A DNA stretch of 54,664 nucleotides, from assembly GCA_019695175.1 (NCBI GenBank), contig JAIBAM010000016.1, positions 1 through 54,664 on the forward strand. Direction: 5' to 3'. The position numbers were made by a program, and so were the translations under genes. The notes below the pieces were generated by a model that worked only from the letters and a program-made list of their open reading frames with translations, was not told the DNA's origin and made no database searches. Source of the stretch: Bdellovibrionales bacterium. Its GTDB lineage: Bacteria; Bdellovibrionota; Bdellovibrionia; Bdellovibrionales; UBA1609. Positions 1 to 10,610 of the stretch are shown here, piece by piece (position 1 is the first letter of the stretch; the number at the start of each line of letters is the position of its first letter).

Positions 1-321
1 ACTTGATTAGTTTGATTTCGAAACAACAGAAAAAAAATTCAATCCACCCTCATCAAGACTCAGAACTAGAAATTTTTTGTTCCAAAACGGAACTCCTGAA
101 AAAACTCCCCCAATTTCCCACTCCGAACCTATTTCACCATTTTCATCGATAAGACAAATATAGTTTAATTTACAGTAAAAAAGAATTCTTTCATTATTTA
201 GACTATCAAAAAGTACAATGGGGCTACTTATTTGATTAAAATTATTTTTTAAATCAAATTTTTTTTTCCAGCGAAGCTTCCCTGTCGTAAGATCCAATGC
301 ATACAATATGTTTTCTGAGTC
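1..321. repeat. Duplication copy A, left block (partner 5577-5896)
   Basis: Window bases 1-321 match 5577-5896. The first 125 or so bases are identical; the rest carries scattered substitutions and small indels, around 92% by eye. The block is the 3' part of the PQQ-propeller gene. The match starts at base 1, so the duplication may extend further left than this window shows. Confidence 0.9.
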
Positions 322-1320
322 AGCTCCAATAAGTAAATTTTTCCTTTGAAAAACCACGGGACTGACTTGTGACTTAGAGTCCATTTTAAAGTTCCAGCGT
401 GTCACCCCTGAACCTATCTTTAATGATACAATCTCACCGCCCCAAGTTGTAAAATAAATATGATCCCTTTCAATCACAGGGGTAGATTTAATTTCTCCTT
501 TTACCGGTATAAAAAAAACCCTCCGCCCTGTTTCAAAATCAAAAGCTTGAATGGAAGAATTATTAGCACCTATATAAATAAGATTTGATTTATTATCATA
601 AGCAGGTGACGAATGTGATTGCTCCCCAATAAGTTCACTTTTCCAAATAATTTCTCCAGTATTTTTGTTAATCTTTACAAGATAACCGTTACGATTTCGC
701 ATTTCTTCTGAAATAATGATGTGCTCTCCTGCACTTAAAGGTGAGGCTCCGATGGTCTGACCCAAAATACGTGACCAAATTAAGACACCATTTCGTTTGT
801 TTATTTTATAAAAAGCGCCACTATAGGAACCTATATAAACCGCTTCTTGATCAATAAGTGCAGTGCTATGAATTCCACGATCAGAATTGGCAAAATAAAA
901 TTTCCACTTTATTTTTCCTAAAATATCAAAACAATAAAACCAAGAGGCATCCGAACCTACAAAAATAAGTTCTCCATCACTTACTGGAGAGGCTTTGGAT
1001 GCACCATGAATGCCTACATTCAATTTTTCAGAGGACCATGTTTTTTTTAAATCAAATTTCAAGTTGTCAACATAAAATCGAGCCGATCGGCTTTGATCCT
1101 GCCGATAGTAAATATCATTAAAGTCATTTGTTTTGTTATTTTTATTTTCTTCTTTTTTTAAGGCATTTTTTTGATATGAATTTAAACTCCAAATCTCATA
1201 ATTACTGCTAATATTTAAGTTTGTTGATGCCTCAATTAATAACTTAGAATTTATTTTGTAGATCACTAAACTTACAATGAAAAATGAAAGAAGTGTTATC
1301 GATAGTTTAAACTTATTCAT
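7..1320 (-). CDS. PQQ-type beta-propeller protein, membrane anchored (BamB-like fold)
   Basis: The 437-residue product starts with a hydrophobic stretch (about residues 8-24) that looks like a signal anchor, so the rest is probably periplasmic. From about residue 110 to 430 it has at least five repeats ending in a G-x-x-x-W pattern (for example TGEIIWKS, TGKLRWKKKF), each preceded by a YIGS- or IGAD-type strand. This is the signature of PQQ/quinoprotein-like propeller blades, as in BamB and many binding proteins. No PQQ ligands or catalytic residues can be assigned, so a scaffold or binding role is more likely than an enzyme. Its start overlaps the end of the upstream membrane gene by 8 bp, which suggests one transcript for the three minus-strand genes here. 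A decayed partial copy lies at 5583-5896. Confidence 0.75.
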   Translation of the reverse strand: MNKFKLSITLLSFFIVSLVIYKINSKLLIEASTNLNISSNYEIWSLNSYQKNALKKEENKNNKTNDFNDIYYRQDQSRSARFYVDNLKFDLKKTWSSEKLNVGIHGASKASPVSDGELIFVGSDASWFYCFDILGKIKWKFYFANSDRGIHSTALIDQEAVYIGSYSGAFYKINKRNGVLIWSRILGQTIGASPLSAGEHIIISEEMRNRNGYLVKINKNTGEIIWKSELIGEQSHSSPAYDNKSNLIYIGANNSSIQAFDFETGRRVFFIPVKGEIKSTPVIERDHIYFTTWGGEIVSLKIGSGVTRWNFKMDSKSQVSPVVFQRKNLLIGADSENILYALDLTTGKLRWKKKFDLKNNFNQISSPIVLFDSLNNERILFYCKLNYICLIDENGEIGSEWEIGGVFSGVPFWNKKFLVLSLDEGGLNFFSVVSKSN

Positions 1321-2467
1321 CTTGAGATATCTTTCCTAAAAATGAGATTCGAAGTTTCTTACTGCAAATATCACTAAAGGAGTATTGCAGAGTTAAGTTT
1401 TTCTGAGATTGATCAGAAATTTGCAAACTCATATCAATATCAATAAAGTTTTTTTGTTTTAAAAAGTTTTCACAAGTTAATTCTGCCTGGCGAAGAGTAA
1501 CTAAGGGATCACATTGTATGCGAACAGAAAAATTATTGATCGGATAATACTCAATCGTTTCATTTTTGAGTTTTATGAGTAATTGGGTTTGACATGTGGA
1601 GTAAGCATCTAACATGTTTAAAGAAAGAATTCGTCCCTCTCCACTTAATCTTGAATTTGGGAATAAAAAAAACACACTGAATTGAATTCCCATAAAGATA
1701 AATATTAACATTAAAAAATAATAAATATTCTTTTTAGATAAGACCAAACCAATTGGTGAAAAAATAAAAATGGAAAGAAGGCCAAACATAATTAATGGAT
1801 AAAAATAACCTACAATATGCCATGAAAAAATGTGAAAAATAATAAAGTTTAAAAAAACGAGCCAAAAAATTTTTTTATTCTTTGATAAAATGAGAAAAAA
1901 AGATCCAATGAATTCTAAAAAAATAACATAAATGCAGCTTATTTGAAGAATTTTTCCGCTAAGAATCGCCGGCCTAATCAAGTTTTGACCATTGATCCAT
2001 TGAATATTAAACTTTAATAAGCTTGCTGAAAAATAAAACATGACAATAAACAGTTTTATAGTTCCTTCTTTGTAGGGAAGTAACAAAAATGAGAAATTAA
2101 TAATATTTGTCATGTAATGATAATTACCCATCAATCTATAATCTGAAATATGAATCAGATACTTAACTAAAGTAGCCACTAAAAAGAAACCGTAGGCCAG
2201 AGAAATTCTATTTAGAAGAAATAGAATCGCTGATGTAATAGAGATGAGAAAGTAAAAATAAATAACCACCAATTCGTAGCCGTGAAGTTGACCATAAAAT
2301 GACTGGCAATTTGTTAAGAAACTCCAACAGATCATGTCTTGATCAAAATCAAGACCGTGCCTCCAAAAAAATGCGGTTAAGACATGAAGTAATGATAAAA
2401 TAAACCCAAACCAAATTAGGTTTTTATTGTTTGAAATTTCGTCAATGGATTTCTTAAATACATTCAT
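1313..2467 (-). CDS. Multi-pass membrane protein, HTTM/gamma-carboxylase-like
   Basis: The 384-residue protein has about eight to nine hydrophobic segments in residues 15-265, then a soluble C-terminal tail of about 115 residues with three cysteines. A segment near residues 145-165 (YFSASLLKFNIQWINGQ) resembles the signature around the conserved Lys and Trp of HTTM (horizontally transferred transmembrane) proteins, relatives of vitamin K-dependent gamma-carboxylase. That assignment is by motif resemblance only. It overlaps the propeller gene by 8 bp and begins 2 bp before the end of the pentapeptide-like gene, so the three genes look like an operon transcribed toward position 1. No trace of it survives in copy B of the duplication. 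The function is unknown. Confidence 0.6.
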   Translation of the reverse strand: MNVFKKSIDEISNNKNLIWFGFILSLLHVLTAFFWRHGLDFDQDMICWSFLTNCQSFYGQLHGYELVVIYFYFLISITSAILFLLNRISLAYGFFLVATLVKYLIHISDYRLMGNYHYMTNIINFSFLLLPYKEGTIKLFIVMFYFSASLLKFNIQWINGQNLIRPAILSGKILQISCIYVIFLEFIGSFFLILSKNKKIFWLVFLNFIIFHIFSWHIVGYFYPLIMFGLLSIFIFSPIGLVLSKKNIYYFLMLIFIFMGIQFSVFFLFPNSRLSGEGRILSLNMLDAYSTCQTQLLIKLKNETIEYYPINNFSVRIQCDPLVTLRQAELTCENFLKQKNFIDIDMSLQISDQSQKNLTLQYSFSDICSKKLRISFLGKISQDE

Positions 2468-2469
2468 TT

Positions 2470-3054
2470 TTATATAATTTCATGACAATTGATAAATCGA
2501 ACATTAATAAGAATAACTCCCTTAAAGAGATCTTTCGAGTAGCTGCAATTTTCAAAAACAGAGTCCGCAATGTAAGCAGAGTTGAAGTCTGAATTAATTA
2601 TTTTAAATTCTTTCCAGTGCGATTTTATAATTTTAGCCCCAGAAAAGTTTACTTTCGAAAATGTAACATTTTTTATGTTGAAATTTAGACCCATGATTCC
2701 ACGAAAATCTACATAAGCTATTGTCGACTGTTCCAAACTCAAATGAACCAATCGACTTTGTTTAAAACTAAATTGACTGCCATAAATACCTCTAACTGAA
2801 ACATTAAAGAAATTTGCCAAAAAAAAAGTGGAATTAGTTAAATCTAAATTTTCTAGTTTTATATTTCTAAATTGGGTTTTATTTCCATCAAAACGAGGCC
2901 CGATGCTATTTTTTTGAGTTTTAAAACAAGTGGTCCCGCTTGCCTTTAAGTTCATACTCAGAAAAGTAATGATTTGAACGATGACAAAAATGGAGACTCT
3001 ACAAAAATAAATGAATCTATTTCCAGAGATCTTCTTCCCTTCAGATATTCCCAT
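2470..3054 (-). CDS. Exported pentapeptide-repeat-like protein
   Basis: With the ATG at 3054 the product is 194 residues. A hydrophobic segment (about residues 17-35) is followed by a region of degenerate five-residue repeats with Leu/Phe at the centre and N/S/D before it (for example LENLDLTNSTF and VTFSKVNFSGAKI). This is the pattern of pentapeptide repeats that build a right-handed beta-helix. Two Cys lie near the C terminus and one just after the hydrophobic segment. An upstream in-frame TTG at 3099 would add 15 residues; neither start has a clear ribosome binding site, and I prefer the ATG because it is also kept in the duplicated copy (ATG at 5995). It is first in the three-gene minus-strand group. 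The function is unknown. Confidence 0.6.
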   Translation of the reverse strand: MGISEGKKISGNRFIYFCRVSIFVIVQIITFLSMNLKASGTTCFKTQKNSIGPRFDGNKTQFRNIKLENLDLTNSTFFLANFFNVSVRGIYGSQFSFKQSRLVHLSLEQSTIAYVDFRGIMGLNFNIKNVTFSKVNFSGAKIIKSHWKEFKIINSDFNSAYIADSVFENCSYSKDLFKGVILINVRFINCHEII

Positions 3055-3660
3055 GACTAAATTATCGTGATTTGCAATTCGCAGGTCAATTGTAAGCAAA
3101 AATTATTTGTTAAAAAAAGTGTCTACAAAGTATTGATCGGTCTAAACCCTATCAAAAAAAATTGATCGAACTTTATCCAGTTTCTACGAGATTTACCTTA
3201 ATATGTATTCCTTTGAGAATAGGGGTTTGCAAAATAGTTTTAGCAAGTTAGAGTGAAATTGCGTTGATAAATATCAATTGGATGCATCTTATTCTAAGCG
3301 TTGAGATTACAGCTTGGATAGACCAACTAAAGAAATAAAGATGTTTTCAGTTTATTTTATTCCAACCGAACGGGAGATTTTTTATGGGTCGCTCCACTAC
3401 TGTAGTTGTTTTTTATGAACTCAAACCCTTTATCTGCACAGCTCTTGGCCTTTATGCCAGCGCCGCGCTTTCCACTGATTTTTTTGGTAAAATGGCAGGA
3501 TTCTTACTGGTTTTGAGTGGCACCCTCATTTTTTACATGAGAGCTCGTCACCGAGGAGTCTTTCATTAATTGAGAGCTATGGTGGACCCCCTTTGTCTAG
3601 ACCATGAGGTCCACTATATGTATTGGTTGATTTTACAAGGCACTTTAACATGGGGACGAC
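3031..3660. repeat. Duplication copy A, near-identical 630-bp block (partner 5972-6601)
   Basis: Bases 3031-3660 match 5972-6601 at a constant offset of 2941 with only two differences seen (3057 C/T and 3588 C/T). The block holds the start of the pentapeptide-like gene, about 300 bp of non-coding DNA and the whole 61-codon gene. The non-coding part is as well conserved as the gene, so the similarity reflects recent duplication or gene conversion, not protein-level selection. Confidence 0.95.
3384..3569 (+). CDS. Small inner-membrane protein, 61 aa (copy A)
   Basis: The ATG follows a GGGAG ribosome binding site about 8 bases upstream (cgggagattttttATG). The product has two hydrophobic stretches, about residues 8-29 and 34-52, and a basic C-terminal tail (MRARHRGVFH). 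This fits a two-pass inner-membrane protein with positively charged cytoplasmic ends. It is identical at the protein level to the ORF at 6325-6510. I do not recognise the family. The good ribosome binding site, the sensible topology and its survival in both copies argue that it is a real gene. Confidence 0.65.
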   Translation: MGRSTTVVVFYELKPFICTALGLYASAALSTDFFGKMAGFLLVLSGTLIFYMRARHRGVFH

Positions 3661-3678
3661 CCCCTGAACAGTGCCTTG
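3636..3678. repeat. Inverted repeat CAAGGCACT / AGTGCCTTG at the deletion junction
   Basis: Perfect 9-bp arms at 3636-3644 and 3670-3678 enclose a further GGGG/CCCC pairing (3652-3655 with 3660-3663), giving a strong hairpin. The same arms sit 2.3 kb apart in copy B (6577-6585 and 8907-8915). The hairpin was therefore created by the deletion joining them. Confidence 0.75.
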
Positions 3679-3780
3679 ATGAGAGGATGGCCTTACGAAC
3701 CTGACTTATTTTTGACAGAATAGGATGTGATAAAGTTTTTAAATAAACCTCAAGAATATTTTTGCGCATTTTGTGGGTCC
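3661..3780. repeat. Deletion scar: fused fragments of 8897-8923 and 9202-9290
   Basis: After the 630-bp block, copy A jumps. Bases 3661-3687 match 8897-8923 (inside the beta-barrel gene) and bases 3692-3780 match 9202-9290 (start of the zinc-ribbon gene) at about 94%. Copy A therefore once continued through the genes now found only at 6686-9290, and lost them by two deletions. Confidence 0.85.
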
Positions 3781-3870
3781 AAATCAACCTTAACCAGAAG
3801 TATCACTTCTTTTCCCTTAGCCAAACCATCATCTATTCGTGTAATGGAGAAGTGCATGATAAAATCTTGA
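3727..3870 (+). pseudogene. 5' remnant of the zinc-ribbon protein gene
   Basis: From the GTG at 3727 the reading frame matches the first 18 codons of the gene at 9237 (IKFLNKPQEYFCAFCGS against IKFLSKPQECFCAFCGS). It then diverges and stops at 3868-3870 after 47 codons. Only the first CxxC half of the zinc ribbon is left and the first of the three clustered Cys is now Tyr, so it cannot be a working copy. Confidence 0.7.
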
Positions 3871-4029
3871 TCCATATTTTTTAAATCCAGTCACTGCATA
3901 ATAAAGTTTGCTTAGCTCCAAAGTGACGTAGTTAAGGACTCCCACAAATGCAATCACTGAAACAACGACCAAAGCATTTCCTCTGCAGTTTAAGTCTTTA
4001 ATTAAATTGTAAATTAAAATCTCAAACAT
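3829..4029 (-). CDS. Possible small membrane protein, doubtful
   Basis: A 66-codon ORF with one hydrophobic stretch (about residues 19-36) starts at an ATG preceded by AAGGGGG, though that is only one base from the start codon. It overlaps the zinc-ribbon remnant on the other strand and has no recognisable family. It may be chance in decayed DNA. Confidence 0.2.
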   Translation of the reverse strand: MFEILIYNLIKDLNCRGNALVVVSVIAFVGVLNYVTLELSKLYYAVTGFKKYGSRFYHALLHYTNR

Positions 4030-4105
4030 GCCCCCTTATAAAATGGCAAAAATAACGAATTTAAATCAATTTCCATCCCCATCGCCGCTGCAACCATAGG
4101 GAAAG

Positions 4106-5278
4106 TCACAAATCGCCATCTTCAGTGTAAAAAGAGGAAAAACTTTCACCAAAGGGTAAATCACCATTAAAGTTTTCATTATAATATCCATAATATCCAT
4201 AATATCCATAATATCTAATATAAAAGTCATATCCTCGACATGAACCTGATGTACTCCACTGGCATACATTTTGGGCGTTTAAACAGACCGTCTCTCTGAC
4301 AAAATTATAAGTGTAAAAACCATTTACCAAATTACCGCCTATACAATTGGGTTGATTAAAGTTTTGAACCAACACCGTCTCGCACGAACCGCCACTCTGG
4401 ATGAAATTTCCATACCCATTGCAACTATAAGAAAGACTCCCTCGCCAAACACTATTAGCGGGCGGTGTTCCCAATACAGAGCAACTGCTTACTGTGGTCT
4501 GTCCCTCTGTTAGATTTGGCAACGGGGCATTTCCAGTATATCCGCCATAAGGAAATCTAAAAGTTTGAGCCCGACATGTGGCCGGCAAATCATTGCAACT
4601 TAATTGTGAAAGTTTCCATTCACCAGACACACACTTAAAAGAAGCCGATCCCTTGACCACTTTTCCTGGAATATCAAATGCCGTTCCATTAAGGCGTTTA
4701 AATTGTGAACAACTTACATCCGTCAATCCAACACTTGGGTTAGAGGTGGAGTAAGAATCAGATTCTGGAAGTTGTACGATTATTGTTTCTTGCACCTCCA
4801 CATTAGCTCCAGTCTTATAATTAATGGTAAACTGAGTTTGTTTTTCAAAACATTTAGCCCCATCAGAAAATCTGGGTTCAGGGCCGCTAATATAGGGAAC
4901 TATGGAACTGGTTGCAGAGCAATTTCCCCTATAAATACTTGTTAATGGAAATGATAAACAGTTAGGACCAGATGGATTCAGTGAAACTGGTCCTCTCTCG
5001 GCTGGTATAGAACTTAGGGGAACAGGTCGTGAAGGGAGCGTCGTCTCCGTCCAAGTTCCCAAAGCTTCCCAAGTAAAGGTGGATGGTGTCGTAGAAAACG
5101 AAGAATAAAATAATCTGGTATACATCTCAGTAAAGTGTCTTCCTCTATGTCGTGTTCGATCTGTATTCCAACGATTTTGATCATTATTGTTTCCACTTTG
5201 ACCATTATTATTACTACTTTGAGCTTCTTGAAAAGGTAAAATAACCAGCACGAATATCATCAGCATTTTAATTTTCAT
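4106..5278 (-). CDS. Secreted Cys-rich protein, unknown function
   Basis: The 390-residue product starts with a clean signal peptide (MKIKMLMIFVLVILPFQEAQS, cleavage near residue 21). An Asn/Gln/Arg-rich linker follows (about 22-50), and then a Cys-rich body from about residue 110 to 350. The stretch near residues 205-230 (KGSASFKCVSGEWKLSQLSC) has the Cys, Gly-x-Trp and Cys spacing of a sushi-like module, and related Cys-pair modules follow. These resemblances are weak and give no function. Near the C terminus a YYG triplet is repeated by a 9-bp tandem repeat. The ribosome binding site is a GGGGGG run 6 bases before the ATG. It is not part of the duplicated blocks on either side. An extracellular or surface binding role is a guess. 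Confidence 0.7.
   Translation of the reverse strand: MKIKMLMIFVLVILPFQEAQSSNNNGQSGNNNDQNRWNTDRTRHRGRHFTEMYTRLFYSSFSTTPSTFTWEALGTWTETTLPSRPVPLSSIPAERGPVSLNPSGPNCLSFPLTSIYRGNCSATSSIVPYISGPEPRFSDGAKCFEKQTQFTINYKTGANVEVQETIIVQLPESDSYSTSNPSVGLTDVSCSQFKRLNGTAFDIPGKVVKGSASFKCVSGEWKLSQLSCNDLPATCRAQTFRFPYGGYTGNAPLPNLTEGQTTVSSCSVLGTPPANSVWRGSLSYSCNGYGNFIQSGGSCETVLVQNFNQPNCIGGNLVNGFYTYNFVRETVCLNAQNVCQWSTSGSCRGYDFYIRYYGYYGYYGYYNENFNGDLPFGESFSSFYTEDGDL
4181..4216. repeat. 9-bp tandem repeat (ATAATATCC, three perfect and one imperfect unit)
   Basis: Three perfect units at 4181-4207 and a fourth with one mismatch (to 4216) encode Gly-Tyr-Tyr triplets on the minus strand. Because the unit is 9 bp, gain or loss of units keeps the frame. 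Confidence 0.9.
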
Positions 5279-5576
5279 CTCATCCCCCCAAAATTAAAAC
5301 CCTTTAAATAAATACGCTGATGTAAAAATCAATTGTCTGCTTTCAATGTAGATGTCGTTTACCCTAGTCGTGCAGAAATTTTACTATATTTCCCTCGTCA
5401 CTTCTTTTCGGCGTTAAAACCTACTTAATAAAGACAAATGTTAGTTTTTTGTTTAATTTTTACTAAAAACTGGTTTTTTATAAAACAAATGAGTCAATAT
5501 TGGATTTAAATGTTTCTTATTAAGAAAGATTATTTTATTGATACAGAATTAAAATAAATTTTATTTTAACAAAAGT
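5279..5576. other. AT-rich intergenic region before copy B
   Basis: This is 298 bp between the Cys-rich gene and the start of copy B. It presumably carries the promoter of the minus-strand gene at 4106-5278, but I see no convincing -35/-10 pair, RNA gene or conserved ORF. The left edge of the duplicated unit lies at or before its right end (5577). Confidence 0.5.
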
Positions 5577-5582
5577 ACTTGA

Positions 5583-5896
5583 TTAGTTTGATTTCGAAAC
5601 AACAGAAAAAAAATTCAATCCACCCTCATCAAGACTCAGAACTAGAAATTTTTTGTTCCAAAACGGAACTCCTGAAAAAACTCCCCCAATTTCCCACTCC
5701 GAATCTATTTCTCCATTTTCATCGATAAGACAAATATAGTTTAATTTACAGTAAAAAAGAATTCTTCCATTGTTTATGACTATTAAAAAGTACAATGGGG
5801 CTACTTATATGATTAAAATTATTTTTTAAATCATTTTTTTTCCAGAGAAACTTCCCTATCGTAAGATCCAATGCATATAATATGTTTTCTGAGCCA
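5583..5896 (-). pseudogene. 3' remnant of the PQQ-propeller gene (copy B)
   Basis: This is the counterpart of 7-321. It keeps the stop codon and about the last 65 codons in frame. A frameshift near 5780-5795 then moves the rest of the match into another frame, and the sequence ends abruptly at about 5896. The corresponding deletion removed copy-A positions of about 322-2953, that is, most of this gene, all of the membrane gene and most of the pentapeptide-like gene. Confidence 0.85.
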
Positions 5897-5898
5897 TA

Positions 5899-5995
5899 AT
5901 CAGAAAAGTAATGACTTGAATGATGATAAAAAAGCAAACCCAACTAAAAAAAGTAATCTATTTTTAAAGGCCTTCTTCCCTTCAGATATTCCCAT
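5899..5995 (-). pseudogene. 5' remnant of the pentapeptide-like gene (copy B)
   Basis: From the ATG at 5995 the first eight codons match the gene starting at 3054 (MGISEGKK). The signal-anchor part is altered by substitutions and a frame change, and the frame stops after about 31 codons. It is joined directly to the propeller remnant. Confidence 0.75.
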
Positions 5996-6601
5996 GATTA
6001 AATTATCGTGATTTGCAATTCGCAGGTCAATTGTAAGCAAAAATTATTTGTTAAAAAAAGTGTCTACAAAGTATTGATCGGTCTAAACCCTATCAAAAAA
6101 AATTGATCGAACTTTATCCAGTTTCTACGAGATTTACCTTAATATGTATTCCTTTGAGAATAGGGGTTTGCAAAATAGTTTTAGCAAGTTAGAGTGAAAT
6201 TGCGTTGATAAATATCAATTGGATGCATCTTATTCTAAGCGTTGAGATTACAGCTTGGATAGACCAACTAAAGAAATAAAGATGTTTTCAGTTTATTTTA
6301 TTCCAACCGAACGGGAGATTTTTTATGGGTCGCTCCACTACTGTAGTTGTTTTTTATGAACTCAAACCCTTTATCTGCACAGCTCTTGGCCTTTATGCCA
6401 GCGCCGCGCTTTCCACTGATTTTTTTGGTAAAATGGCAGGATTCTTACTGGTTTTGAGTGGCACCCTCATTTTTTACATGAGAGCTCGTCACCGAGGAGT
6501 CTTTCATTAATTGAGAGCTATGGTGGACTCCCTTTGTCTAGACCATGAGGTCCACTATATGTATTGGTTGATTTTACAAGGCACTTTAACATGGGGACGA
6601 C
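5972..6601. repeat. Duplication copy B, near-identical 630-bp block
   Basis: Partner of 3031-3660, with two mismatches seen. The non-coding 5996-6324 is identical to 3055-3383 except at one base. It holds no ORF, only the leader of the 61-codon gene. Confidence 0.95.
6325..6510 (+). CDS. Small inner-membrane protein, 61 aa (copy B)
   Basis: This is the same 61 residues, ribosome binding site (GGGAG) and upstream DNA as the gene at 3384-3569. It has two hydrophobic segments and a basic C-terminal tail. In this copy the downstream genes are intact, so this is probably the ancestral context. The family is not recognised. Confidence 0.65.
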   Translation: MGRSTTVVVFYELKPFICTALGLYASAALSTDFFGKMAGFLLVLSGTLIFYMRARHRGVFH

Positions 6602-6685
6602 TAGCATTTAACTCACAACTCCTGATACATTAAAAGGAACATTTATAATTTTTTCCACCGGCAAATCGAAGGACAACTAAAGAAA

Positions 6686-7792
6686 ATGACTTCACCTGGA
6701 TTTATTGCAAAAGGCTTCAAATGGTCTGAAAATTTCTCATCAAAATATAATAAGTACTTTCCTGTAAGCCTATTTTTAATTGGATTTTTATTTGATATTT
6801 TAACTTTAGGTCGAATTGATGCCCTTTTTTCAATATTAAAACAGTCGCTTTATTTGACGATAATTGGCTTTCTACTTTGTCAATGGCTTATCGAGTCCTT
6901 TCGCAGCCCTACTTTTGGTTCCCATTGGATGTGGTTTAAAAAAATCCGATTATTTCTGCTTCATTTTCTGTTTGGGTCCTTACTGAGCGAATATATGTTA
7001 TTTTATTTTAAAAGCTCTTCATTTTCATTAGCCTTTATTTTTATATTTTTGCTGGCAACCTTATTGCTATTAAATGAATGGCATCGCTTTCAAAAGTTGG
7101 GCCTAATTATTAAATTTGCTTTGTTTACTTTTTGCTCTATGAGTTTTTTTTCTTATTTAGTCCCCATTGCATTAGGACAAACAGGAAAATCCATTTTTCT
7201 AGGATCGCTAGTTATGGGCCTAGCTCCTCTCTTAATCATCTCTCATGTATGTCTCCGTTGCGGACTTAAAAAAACCATTATTCGGCAACAGTCTTTGATC
7301 CCAGGACTCTTCGTCATGGTGGTCTTATTTTTTTTATACACTCTGCGATGGATTCCTCCTGTACCACTTTCCATTCAATACATCGGAGTTTTCCATACGC
7401 TCAATAAAGTGGAAGGAAAATTTCAGTTGGGCCACGAACGCCCTTGGTGGCGGTTTTGGCACCACGGAGATCAAGTTTTCTTAGCACAACCCGGGGATAA
7501 AATAGTGATTTTTTTTCGACTCTTTTCACCCACTCACTTTAAGGATGAAGTTCGAGTCAAGTGGTACCTTGATAACTCTCAACATGGCTGGGTGATGCAA
7601 GATGAAATCCCAATAAGAATTATTGGTGGACGCGAAGAGGGATTTAGAGGTTATGCTCAAAAATCCCATTTCACCGAAGGACAGTGGAAGGTTGCCATAG
7701 AAACTTTGGATGAGCGAGAAATTGGAAGAATTTATTTGCAAACAAAATTTACAACTTCGAAACTCAGGTCCTTACAGTTCGAGATCCAATAA
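6686..7792 (+). CDS. Membrane protein with C-terminal DUF2914-like domain
   Basis: The 368-residue product has about seven to eight hydrophobic segments in residues 20-235. A soluble C-terminal domain of about 120 residues follows. That part contains the run of aromatic and charged positions, a strand of the type VRVKWYLDNSQHGW, a Gly-rich turn (IRIIGGREEGFRG) and the ending GQWKVAIETLDEREIGRIY. These match the DUF2914 pattern, where a G-x-W-x-V strand is followed by a G-x-x-x motif. The N-terminal membrane portion plus DUF2914 is a common architecture; its role is not known. It is lost from copy A of the duplication. It converges with the Yip1-like gene, 10 bp away. Confidence 0.7.
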   Translation: MTSPGFIAKGFKWSENFSSKYNKYFPVSLFLIGFLFDILTLGRIDALFSILKQSLYLTIIGFLLCQWLIESFRSPTFGSHWMWFKKIRLFLLHFLFGSLLSEYMLFYFKSSSFSLAFIFIFLLATLLLLNEWHRFQKLGLIIKFALFTFCSMSFFSYLVPIALGQTGKSIFLGSLVMGLAPLLIISHVCLRCGLKKTIIRQQSLIPGLFVMVVLFFLYTLRWIPPVPLSIQYIGVFHTLNKVEGKFQLGHERPWWRFWHHGDQVFLAQPGDKIVIFFRLFSPTHFKDEVRVKWYLDNSQHGWVMQDEIPIRIIGGREEGFRGYAQKSHFTEGQWKVAIETLDEREIGRIYLQTKFTTSKLRSLQFEIQ

Positions 7793-7802
7793 TTTCAAAT
7801 AA

Positions 7803-8453
7803 CTACTTTTGCTCTTTAAGTTCATTCTCCAAAATATCAAGGCTCTCTGGTGTTGCACGGTCCCTCATCAATCGATCTACTTGGTGACGATTTTGCAAAT
7901 TATTGAAAACCCACAAAATGACAAAAACTATATACAGTAAACCCAGTGTTTTTTGAATCTTGAGTCGCTCGACTTGGAAATTATAGACGAACCCCACAGT
8001 CAATAGCCACAGCGAAGCTAAAGGGCCTAAAAGCATTAAGTGTGGCAATAATGGTGAAAGCATAAAAATCACTAGAGCAGGAAGTTGGGCAAAAACAAGT
8101 TGCGTGTAAATTTTTATAAAGGGAACTGTTTTTTTAAAATTAAACAGAAGCAAATAATAAAAAACGCCACTCAGAACAAATGAAATCAATGCATTACTTA
8201 AAGGAACAAAAACTAAGCCGGTCACACAGGCAATGACACTTTTGCTCACAACCCCGGAAAGAAAACCTGCACCTGCGGCAAAAAGCCCTTGGCAAATCAG
8301 TAAAAAAGCCCAATCCCATTCTGGAAGATTTCGCATTCCTTCCACTGGATTGTAGGAATACTGCAGTAGTACACGTCCGGCTTCTTTAAGCCTTTTTTGC
8401 CAAAGAATCCTGTTGTTGATTGAAGTTTGATTCATTTGCATCCATGGGAACAT
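7803..8453 (-). CDS. Yip1-like integral membrane protein
   Basis: The 216-residue protein has about five hydrophobic segments between residues 48 and 185. It begins with an NPVEGMRNLPEWDW region, and the hydrophobic core and spacing resemble bacterial Yip1-domain proteins. The C-terminal tail is charged. Alternative starts exist at the Met residues 5 and 7; none has a strong ribosome binding site. It lies 21 bp before the end of the beta-barrel gene on the same strand and is likely co-transcribed with it. The function is unknown. Confidence 0.5.
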   Translation of the reverse strand: MFPWMQMNQTSINNRILWQKRLKEAGRVLLQYSYNPVEGMRNLPEWDWAFLLICQGLFAAGAGFLSGVVSKSVIACVTGLVFVPLSNALISFVLSGVFYYLLLFNFKKTVPFIKIYTQLVFAQLPALVIFMLSPLLPHLMLLGPLASLWLLTVGFVYNFQVERLKIQKTLGLLYIVFVILWVFNNLQNRHQVDRLMRDRATPESLDILENELKEQK

Positions 8454-8474
8454 ATTTGCAAGTAAGGACGCAAG

Positions 8475-9158
8475 TTAAAAGTGGGTTTCAACTTTTATAC
8501 TTCCATTTAAGGCCATATGGTCCACAGTTTCTTTGATTAAACTTTTTCTTAATGATAATTCCGTTCCAATGGAAAAATTTTTAGAAAAAGGAAAGCTAAG
8601 TCCCATTCCAAAAATGGAGGCTGGAGTCCTATAACTTCCAGAAAGTGATTGATGCCCTGGGATTGAATTTGAATTATTTGAATCTCGGGATTCAACGAGA
8701 AGGTAACGTGCTGCCAACCCAAGACTACAATGCATTTCTAAGTTGTATAAAATATTTTGTGAAAAGATCAGTCTCAGATCAAATTCCTTTAATTTGACGG
8801 CATAATAGGCATCCAAGTTATGGGGATCAAACCCTCGAATACTTCCTTCGGCTTGCCAATGGGGAGAAAACAAATCAATGCCCAAATTGGCTTCAACCCC
8901 CTGAACAGTGCCTTGATGAGAAGATCCCCCCTGATCTGATTTAACCTGCAAGAAAGATGAAATCAGCCCCACACTGGTATGAATTTTAACATCTGCGAAA
9001 GGATCATACATCCTCTCTTCAGATTTATGGGATGAAGAGAGTTGAGTTACAACGGCATCAAATCCCATCACCTCGTTATCTTCTGCCCGAGCAAAAATTC
9101 CCGACAGGAAATTCATTGCGACCATAGTCCAGAAAAAAAGAAATCTTATTTTAATCAT
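8475..9158 (-). CDS. Small outer-membrane beta-barrel protein
   Basis: The 227-residue product has a signal peptide (hydrophobic about residues 5-20, cleavage after IFARA near 25). It then shows alternating hydrophobic/polar strands, with Gly/Ser-rich turns, ending in Phe (VETHF), the usual C-terminal signature for Bam-mediated insertion. The length suggests an 8-stranded barrel. No catalytic motif is visible. Copy A of the duplication keeps only a 27-bp scrap of this gene (3661-3687). Confidence 0.65.
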   Translation of the reverse strand: MIKIRFLFFWTMVAMNFLSGIFARAEDNEVMGFDAVVTQLSSSHKSEERMYDPFADVKIHTSVGLISSFLQVKSDQGGSSHQGTVQGVEANLGIDLFSPHWQAEGSIRGFDPHNLDAYYAVKLKEFDLRLIFSQNILYNLEMHCSLGLAARYLLVESRDSNNSNSIPGHQSLSGSYRTPASIFGMGLSFPFSKNFSIGTELSLRKSLIKETVDHMALNGSIKVETHF

Positions 9159-9236
9159 AGAATAAATTTAACAACAAAAATTGTTTTTGTAAAAACTTGG
9201 TCTTACGAACCCGACTTATTTTTGACAGAATAGGGT

Positions 9237-9683
9237 GTGATAAAGTTCTTAAGTAAACCTCAAGAATGTTTTTGCGCATTTTGTGGGTCCACCAGAAAGG
9301 TCCTTCGTCGACGCCAACCTCTAGGAATCCATTTTTTTGGCAGCGCAATTCTAACGGCAATTATAACTTTACTTGTTTGGGAAGAGCTTCACCCCAAAGG
9401 GTTGGTTCTTTGGGGTATTATATTCTCCCTTTTAGAAACTTCTAATCTTTGGCTTTGGAGAATTGGCATCATCTGCCCCCATTGTGGTTTTGACCCCATT
9501 CTTTATTTAAAAAATCCTCAACAAGCCGCCAAACGGGTGCGAAACTTGTTTGATAGAAAAAAACAAAAGGAAGACTTTTTGTTTACCGGACAAGCTTTAA
9601 TTGCCGTTCAAAAAAGAATAACCCGGGAAAAAAAATCCACAGAGCGACGCTCAAGCTTGTCTCATAACGTTACCAAAATGTAA
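9237..9683 (+). CDS. Membrane-associated zinc-ribbon protein
   Basis: From the GTG at 9237 the product is 148 residues. It has CxxC at residues 11-16 (CFCAFC), two hydrophobic segments (about 31-68), a second CxxC (CPHCGFDP, near residues 80-87) and a Lys/Arg-rich tail. The two CxxC pairs could bind zinc on the cytoplasmic face of a membrane hairpin. No ATG lies upstream in frame, and the AGGG just before the GTG may serve as ribosome binding site. It faces away from the barrel gene and precedes the SH3-barrel gene by 21 bp. A 5' remnant of it lies at 3727-3870. The function is unknown. Confidence 0.6.
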   Translation: MIKFLSKPQECFCAFCGSTRKVLRRRQPLGIHFFGSAILTAIITLLVWEELHPKGLVLWGIIFSLLETSNLWLWRIGIICPHCGFDPILYLKNPQQAAKRVRNLFDRKKQKEDFLFTGQALIAVQKRITREKKSTERRSSLSHNVTKM

Positions 9684-9704
9684 CAATGAGAATCGTGGGG
9701 AAAT

Positions 9705-10610
9705 ATGAAAAAAAGTGGATTGCTGGTTTGTTTTGTTTGGATTGTTTTCAGTGTTTTTTTAATTGCAATTTCATCAGGAGATGAAATTCTTCCCAAATCT
9801 GAAAAGCAAAAAGGGCAGAGTGCTTTGGTGGGGGAAGAGGGTGCCACAATTTATGAAAAACCTGATTTTGATTCTAAAATTCTAGGCCAAGTGAATCCTG
9901 AAACCAAGGTGCGAATTTCCCTAAAACCACGTCCCGCGAAATCAGGTCTCGGTTCCTTTTATCAAATTAAATCAAAGACAGGTCAAATTGGTTACGTAGT
10001 CGATACAGAAGTCATCCCCGAATTTCAAAACCTTAAAAAAGGGCCCAGTGGAAAAAAAAACCCAGGATATAAATCTGCCGTCATTGAAAAAGAAAAAAGT
10101 CGTTCCAAACAAGACTCGATTTATTTCACGCGTTACGCAGGGGCCGGATTGGGTTTGCTTGGCTTTACCGAAAAATTTAGAGGAACTGAGCTTTCAGACC
10201 AAGTTGTGATGTACAACTTACGTTTTACCGGACCTGGGGTCTTATTTGACGGACCTCCATTAGACGTTAACTTTTCCTTTTCTCTTAACCCACCCCAATA
10301 TTATGACGGCATTTCACGAACCCCAGCCAGTGGCTTTTTTATATTTACAGACATTTTATTACTTTTGCCCTTTTGGGAATGGAACCATGATTTGATCTAT
10401 TATGGTATTGGCCCCATGGTCACCTACACCAAATTTCAAGTCCAAAGTACATTCAACTATATAGATTCTCAGGAATTTCGCCTTGGGATTGTGGGCAGCC
10501 TAGGTTACGGCCATCGGTTTAAAAAGTGGATCGCAAGGTTGGATGGTAAATATTATTTTGAAACAACAAGGTACTTTGGTTATTGGGCTTCGGTACAATA
10601 TGAGTTTTAA
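9705..10610 (+). CDS. Outer-membrane protein with SH3-like domain and beta-barrel
   Basis: The 301-residue product has a signal peptide (hydrophobic about residues 5-23). Residues 40-105 look like a bacterial SH3 domain (EGATIYEKPDFDSKILGQV, then IKSKTGQIGYV). The rest is a run of amphipathic strands ending in WASVQYEF, with a terminal Phe, fitting a beta-barrel. SH3b domains often bind peptidoglycan or envelope partners. A GGGGA ribosome binding site precedes the ATG. Its stop codon shares one base with the most upstream mutL start (TAATG), so mutL is probably translated from the same message. Confidence 0.65.
   Translation: MKKSGLLVCFVWIVFSVFLIAISSGDEILPKSEKQKGQSALVGEEGATIYEKPDFDSKILGQVNPETKVRISLKPRPAKSGLGSFYQIKSKTGQIGYVVDTEVIPEFQNLKKGPSGKKNPGYKSAVIEKEKSRSKQDSIYFTRYAGAGLGLLGFTEKFRGTELSDQVVMYNLRFTGPGVLFDGPPLDVNFSFSLNPPQYYDGISRTPASGFFIFTDILLLLPFWEWNHDLIYYGIGPMVTYTKFQVQSTFNYIDSQEFRLGIVGSLGYGHRFKKWIARLDGKYYFETTRYFGYWASVQYEF

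Follow-up and report, generated by a model that had tools for sequence, protein, structure and literature searches.

The left end of the window, the 54,664-nucleotide stretch of DNA analysed here, carries a real, well-bounded and partly decayed tandem duplication; the process is an ordinary one left unusually legible, and no principle is changed by it. In the account that we favour and consider probable as a whole, a segment of about 8.4 kb was duplicated in tandem, the two copies lost genes by complementary deletions and the remainder was homogenised. An earlier note, made from the sequence alone, had proposed one tandem duplication followed by reciprocal gene loss, and this history stands in outline; the unit is larger, two genes rather than one are kept double, and reciprocal loss is subject to a caveat about the phase of the copies.

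Comparison of the window with itself by self-BLAST and a repeat search gave four pairs of blocks, all direct and collinear, with E values (1e-7 to 0) far beyond chance. These are 1-322 and 5577-5896 (95.4% identity), 2953-3660 and 5895-6601 (97.2%), 3659-3688 and 8896-8925 (29 of 30 positions), and 3688-3781 and 9198-9291 (93.6%). They thus form two collinear direct copies of one segment, as expected of a tandem duplication. The blocks listed in the earlier note were recovered in the same order and orientation, except that its start for the second block, 3031, misses a diverged scrap at 2953-3030. The features of the two copies, A on the left and B on the right, are:

7-1320, minus strand: 437-aa beta-propeller gene (PQQ_2 / Beta-prop_ACSF4 match), intact; its 3′ end is the copy A block 1-322
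1-127: terminal k-mer in the copy A block, common to 5577-5703
1313-2467, minus strand: 384-aa membrane protein gene, intact, copy A only; beside the 437-aa gene in relatives too
2470-3099, minus strand: 209-aa pentapeptide-repeat gene, intact, copy A only; likely start near 3054
3031-3660, plus strand: copy A block, putatively homogenised, with the 61-aa gene at 3384-3569; 2 differences in 630 bp from 5972-6601
3659-3688, minus strand: copy A scrap of the 227-aa gene, between two deletions with AC and T microhomology
3688-3781, plus strand: copy A, first codons of the 148-aa gene with the region upstream of them, truncated at the duplication joint
3778-3781: tandem-duplication joint with TCCA microhomology, from the 148-aa gene (parent 9288-9291) to the 899-aa gene (parent C10:930-927)
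3778-4086, minus strand: copy B scrap, 5′ part of the 899-aa pilin-operon gene and preceding spacer, broken in frame and lacking about 0.3 kb internally; the intact parent is C10 374-3073
4106-5278, minus strand: 390-aa gene, intact, copy B, orphan; the 3′ end of a second copy is at C10:1-333
4324-5703: two-copy assembly-graph node of 1380 bp, within which C10 ends and C2 begins, with 127-nt overlaps
5577-5896, minus strand: copy B scrap of the 437-aa gene 3′ end, frame broken by indels
5895-5971, minus strand: copy B, diverged remnant of the 209-aa gene left by a deletion of about 2.6 kb, with CA microhomology at 5895
5972-6601, plus strand: copy B block, putatively homogenised, with the 61-aa gene at 6325-6510
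6686-7792, plus strand: 368-aa gene, intact, copy B only, with a DUF2914 C-terminal domain; in relatives it immediately follows the 61-aa gene
7803-8453, minus strand: 216-aa Yip1-domain gene, intact, copy B only
8475-9158, minus strand: 227-aa gene, intact, copy B only
9237-9683, plus strand: 148-aa gene, intact; the right edge of the duplicated unit lies inside it, at about 9291

The open reading frames agree with the gene content that had been read from the sequence: copy A holds the 437-, 384- and 209-aa genes intact and only scraps of the 227- and 148-aa genes downstream, and copy B holds the 368-, 216-, 227- and 148-aa genes intact and only scraps of the 437- and 209-aa genes. Both copies carry the complete 61-aa gene, in identical form.

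The window spans all of contig C2 in a 2.6-Mb draft genome of 56 contigs, and its position 1 is the contig start, so the DNA to its left is absent from it. A search of the same genome with window 1-9300 yielded a single additional substantial match, to the end of contig C10, which when reversed aligns with window 3778-4450 in three pieces at 88-95% identity. C10 carries an intact 899-aa gene (374-3073) in a pilin-type operon, a label based on the hydrophobic N-terminal ends of the two proteins that follow, not on a family match. The match to C10 makes window 3781-5576 the left part of the second unit, not a unique spacer. Moreover, the 61-codon gene is not, as had been stated, the sole gene kept twice: the 390-aa gene is probably also double, with the 3′ end of its second copy on C10 and the rest presumably in a repeat that collapsed between C10 and C2. 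The two 390-aa genes have diverged completely in their C-terminal tails (window 4087-4323 against C10:312-128 of G000), with a switch of reading frame; the tail has Tyr-Gly repeats in the window copy and is Gly-rich in the C10 copy.

The joint itself lies at 3778-3781, where the start of the 148-aa gene runs directly into the scrap of the 899-aa gene. At this site the window has GTGGG|TCCA|AATC; GTGGG|TCCA is present at 9288 in the right parent and TCCA|AATC at C10:930 in the left. The right end of the unit is therefore fused to its left end while both outer parents are intact, which is what a single tandem duplication of C10:930 to window 9291 has to produce. The pieces sum to a duplicated unit of about 8.4 kb, with its left edge in the 899-aa gene and its right edge in the 148-aa gene; a tandem event involving at least about 3.7-9 kb had been suggested, and the recovery of both edges and the joint upholds the event and fixes its extent, 3781-5576 included. 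No insertion sequence or long repeat was found at the unit edges, which have only 4 bp in common. Three later large deletions have CA, AC and T at their joints (2, 2 and 1 shared bases). Overlaps this short mean that insertion sequences or long repeats are not needed; overlaps of one or two bases are also expected by chance.

The contig ends bear on whether the copies are adjacent. C10 ends with exactly 127 nt shared with window 4324-4450, and C2 starts with exactly 127 nt shared with window 5577-5703. When all 112 contig ends were compared, 23 other pairs also had exactly 127 nt in common, which identifies a k=127 assembly in which C10 and C2 abut one two-copy repeat. This 1380-bp repeat is on no other contig of the draft. 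The ends thus overlap the repeat by 127 nt and the link itself is unassembled; the simplest path would run from C10 through the repeat to the start of C2, and later through the repeat again to the rest of C2, crossing an unassembled repeat copy.

Neighbour sets in related genomes bear on which arrangement is older. The 61- and 368-aa genes are neighbours in three relatives (G001, G005, G023) and the 437- and 384-aa genes in six (G013, G028, G034, G035, G037, G054). The 216-227-148 set is kept in G001, G008, G023 and the Bdellovibrionaceae genome L067, where the 301-aa gene, mutL, miaA and yicC come next on the same side. The 899-aa gene and the next three operon genes are kept together in G037, G028 and G009. 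Since relatives keep these sets, it is the intact gene neighbourhoods of the two units that represent the ancestral state, and the scraps are derived. No one relative among the 40-60 searched, all of them distant, has the full ancestral order, and none of those searched matches the 390-aa gene. The relatives include a single genus-mate, whose 368-aa protein is 49% identical, and a MutL scan of genome contigs returned one distant Bdellovibrionaceae genome, at 47% identity. No close relative that lacks the duplication was among them. In G013 (L082, G013:C9 9867-16834) yicC and miaA are found within 7 kb of the 437-384 pair; in the window the pair is also near mutL-miaA-yicC, but in an orientation that differs from that in G013.

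These observations provide the basis for a model of how the locus arose. We propose that the segment that starts within the 899-aa gene, takes in the 390-, 437-, 384-, 209-, 61-, 368-, 216- and 227-aa genes and ends within the 148-aa gene would have been duplicated head to tail by illegitimate joining at the 4-bp TCCA microhomology. With both edges intragenic, each edge gene would remain intact once, on the outer side, and a scrap would be left at the joint. The left unit would then have lost the 368-aa gene, the 216-aa gene and most of the 227-aa gene through two short-homology deletions, and the right unit most of the 437-aa gene, all of the 384-aa gene and most of the 209-aa gene through one. 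The predicted outcome is that no gene is lost altogether and gene order is unchanged, the 61-aa gene and, probably, the 390-aa gene remaining double.

The two copies have diverged unevenly. The 61-aa blocks (3031-3660 and 5972-6601) have 2 mismatches in 630 bp and the scraps 53 in 698 (p = 2e-13), and about 70% of the 630-bp block lies outside the 61-aa gene. The scrap at 2953-3030 differs from 5895-5971 by 17 mismatches in 77, or 22%, compared with 5.8% in the other scraps (p = 1e-5); we have no good account of this higher divergence, which a single date and simple drift do not explain well. The 1380-bp repeat is identical as assembled, which may partly reflect collapse by the assembler. A near-identical patch that includes silent and non-coding sites, between diverged duplicate flanks, is the pattern left by gene conversion. 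Because the identity extends to such sites, selection on the protein is insufficient, recombinational homogenisation is the best account, and we read both double segments as probably homogenised by gene conversion. Homogenisation requires long unbroken identity, which is present in just the 630-bp block and the 1380-bp repeat; the idea of a minimal segment for recombination is summarised in PMC3924818. Long unbroken stretches would have been kept near-identical by gene conversion or repeated unequal exchange, and the short scraps would have drifted.

The rival that bears most directly on this model keeps the same tandem duplication and changes the phase. An identical stretch of 530 bp surrounds the 61-aa gene (3058-3587 and 5999-6528), and in a k=127 short-read assembly the phase across it is set by the assembler alone. 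Each gene is lost from one copy or the other in the assembly as given, with this phase, so the complementary deletion described in the earlier note is borne out as assembled and falls short of proof, and reciprocal loss is probable rather than proven. If the assembler had swapped the segments, the right copy would begin with the 899 scrap and carry the 390-, 437-, 384-, 209-, 61-, 368-, 216-, 227- and 148-aa genes intact, the left copy would be decayed with only the 390- and 61-aa genes whole, and there would be no reciprocal loss. Both identical stretches, 4324-5703 (1380 bp) and the 530 bp, exceed k, so the graph can be walked either way, and the swapped phase confines all decay to one copy, the commoner fate of a duplicate. 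Against it, the contig runs unbroken across the 530-bp stretch, so that read pairs presumably supported the assembler's pairing, and the observed C10 and C2 ends are those that this pairing yields, whereas the other pairing would make a contig begin at the scrap of the 437-aa gene. We therefore clearly favour the phase as assembled, and consider the swapped phase unlikely, if worth keeping in mind.

It is much harder to credit that two independent or dispersed duplications, or a transposed 630-bp unit carrying the 61-aa gene, met here by chance, and we regard this as very improbable. The 61-aa block is indeed far more alike than its flanks, and short dispersed palindromes lie near its right end. 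Yet all four blocks retain order and orientation, the genes fused at the joint are exactly the two at the outer edges, which is what a single tandem event would give, the parent on C10 also speaks against it, and short palindrome copies elsewhere lack the 61-aa gene. A mobile-element origin of the 61-aa block was also considered and rejected: its right bound is a deletion joint, and the genome has no further copy of the gene. That a single locus was assembled twice is hardly believable, even in a 56-contig draft that breaks at repeats, since outside the homogenised stretches the copies are 3-22% divergent, and their deletions are not the same, which misassembly of one locus cannot yield; barring a two-strain mixture, these sequence differences rule out an artefact.

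The duplication and its decay by complementary loss are explained without need of an adaptive function. A single crossover between the 61-aa blocks would restore the ancestral order with the loss of only a redundant 2.9 kb; with a crossover between the 1380-bp repeats, the 437-, 384- and 209-aa genes would go. The arrangement may persist because having the 61- or 390-aa gene twice is useful, or it may simply not yet have been lost. A stronger reading is that the locus is locked in, both by complementary loss, with recombination at the 1380-bp repeat deleting unique genes, and by selection for double, homogenised 61-aa and/or 390-aa genes; we think this improbable. A Pfam search gave no family for the 61-, 384-, 390-, 227-, 148- or 899-aa proteins, so the search offered no functional grounds for retaining both copies, and an Rfam search of window 1-10000 found no RNA.

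Bacterial tandem duplications usually collapse or reduce quickly to one copy, so halfway states are seldom legible. Because the edges, the joint, three deletions and the homogenised remainder are all still readable here, the locus serves well as a worked example of how a duplication decays; it also illustrates that calls of reciprocal loss from short-read contigs depend on phase across identical stretches. Among spontaneous rearrangements in Salmonella, tandem duplications form at short homologies, and experimentally confirmed junctions mostly share at least 8 bp (PMC3411829). The present case is similar in its head-to-tail copy at a few shared bases and in deletions of the same kind, and differs in its 4-bp joint, its deletions at 1-2 bp and its persistence for long enough to diverge. 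As in tandem duplication-random loss in mitochondrial gene orders (PMC3283314), a multigene duplication appears to have been followed by loss of one copy of each gene, but here the loss, as assembled, is complementary by position, gene order is unchanged, two genes are double and the setting is a bacterial chromosome. As in the concerted evolution of prokaryotic paralogues (PMC6053082), the double genes are near-identical and their neighbours diverged; unlike there, what appears homogenised is a small gene and an orphan gene with intergenic DNA, and the orthologues are too distant for dating.

Short dispersed repeats lie near the 61-aa gene. A near-perfect palindrome of the TATAGTGGACCCCATTGTCTAGACAATGGGGTCCACTATA type was found at 8 other sites in the genome (G000 C28:5236, C37:213834, C37:214076, C50:63349, C33:60642, C19:6913, C17:4100 and C47:33712) and in none of the 39 relatives searched. 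A degenerate copy of it lies 3′ of the 61-aa gene in both duplicates (3578-3620 and 6519-6561). Beside the palindrome is a second short dispersed repeat, beginning TATTGGTTGATTTTACAAGGCACTTT (3619-3646 and 6560-6587), which also occurs in L008, L076 and G000 C37:910-942 and at other sites extends as TTTGATGGTCTAGTTTAACTTTATAAGTCATCAG.
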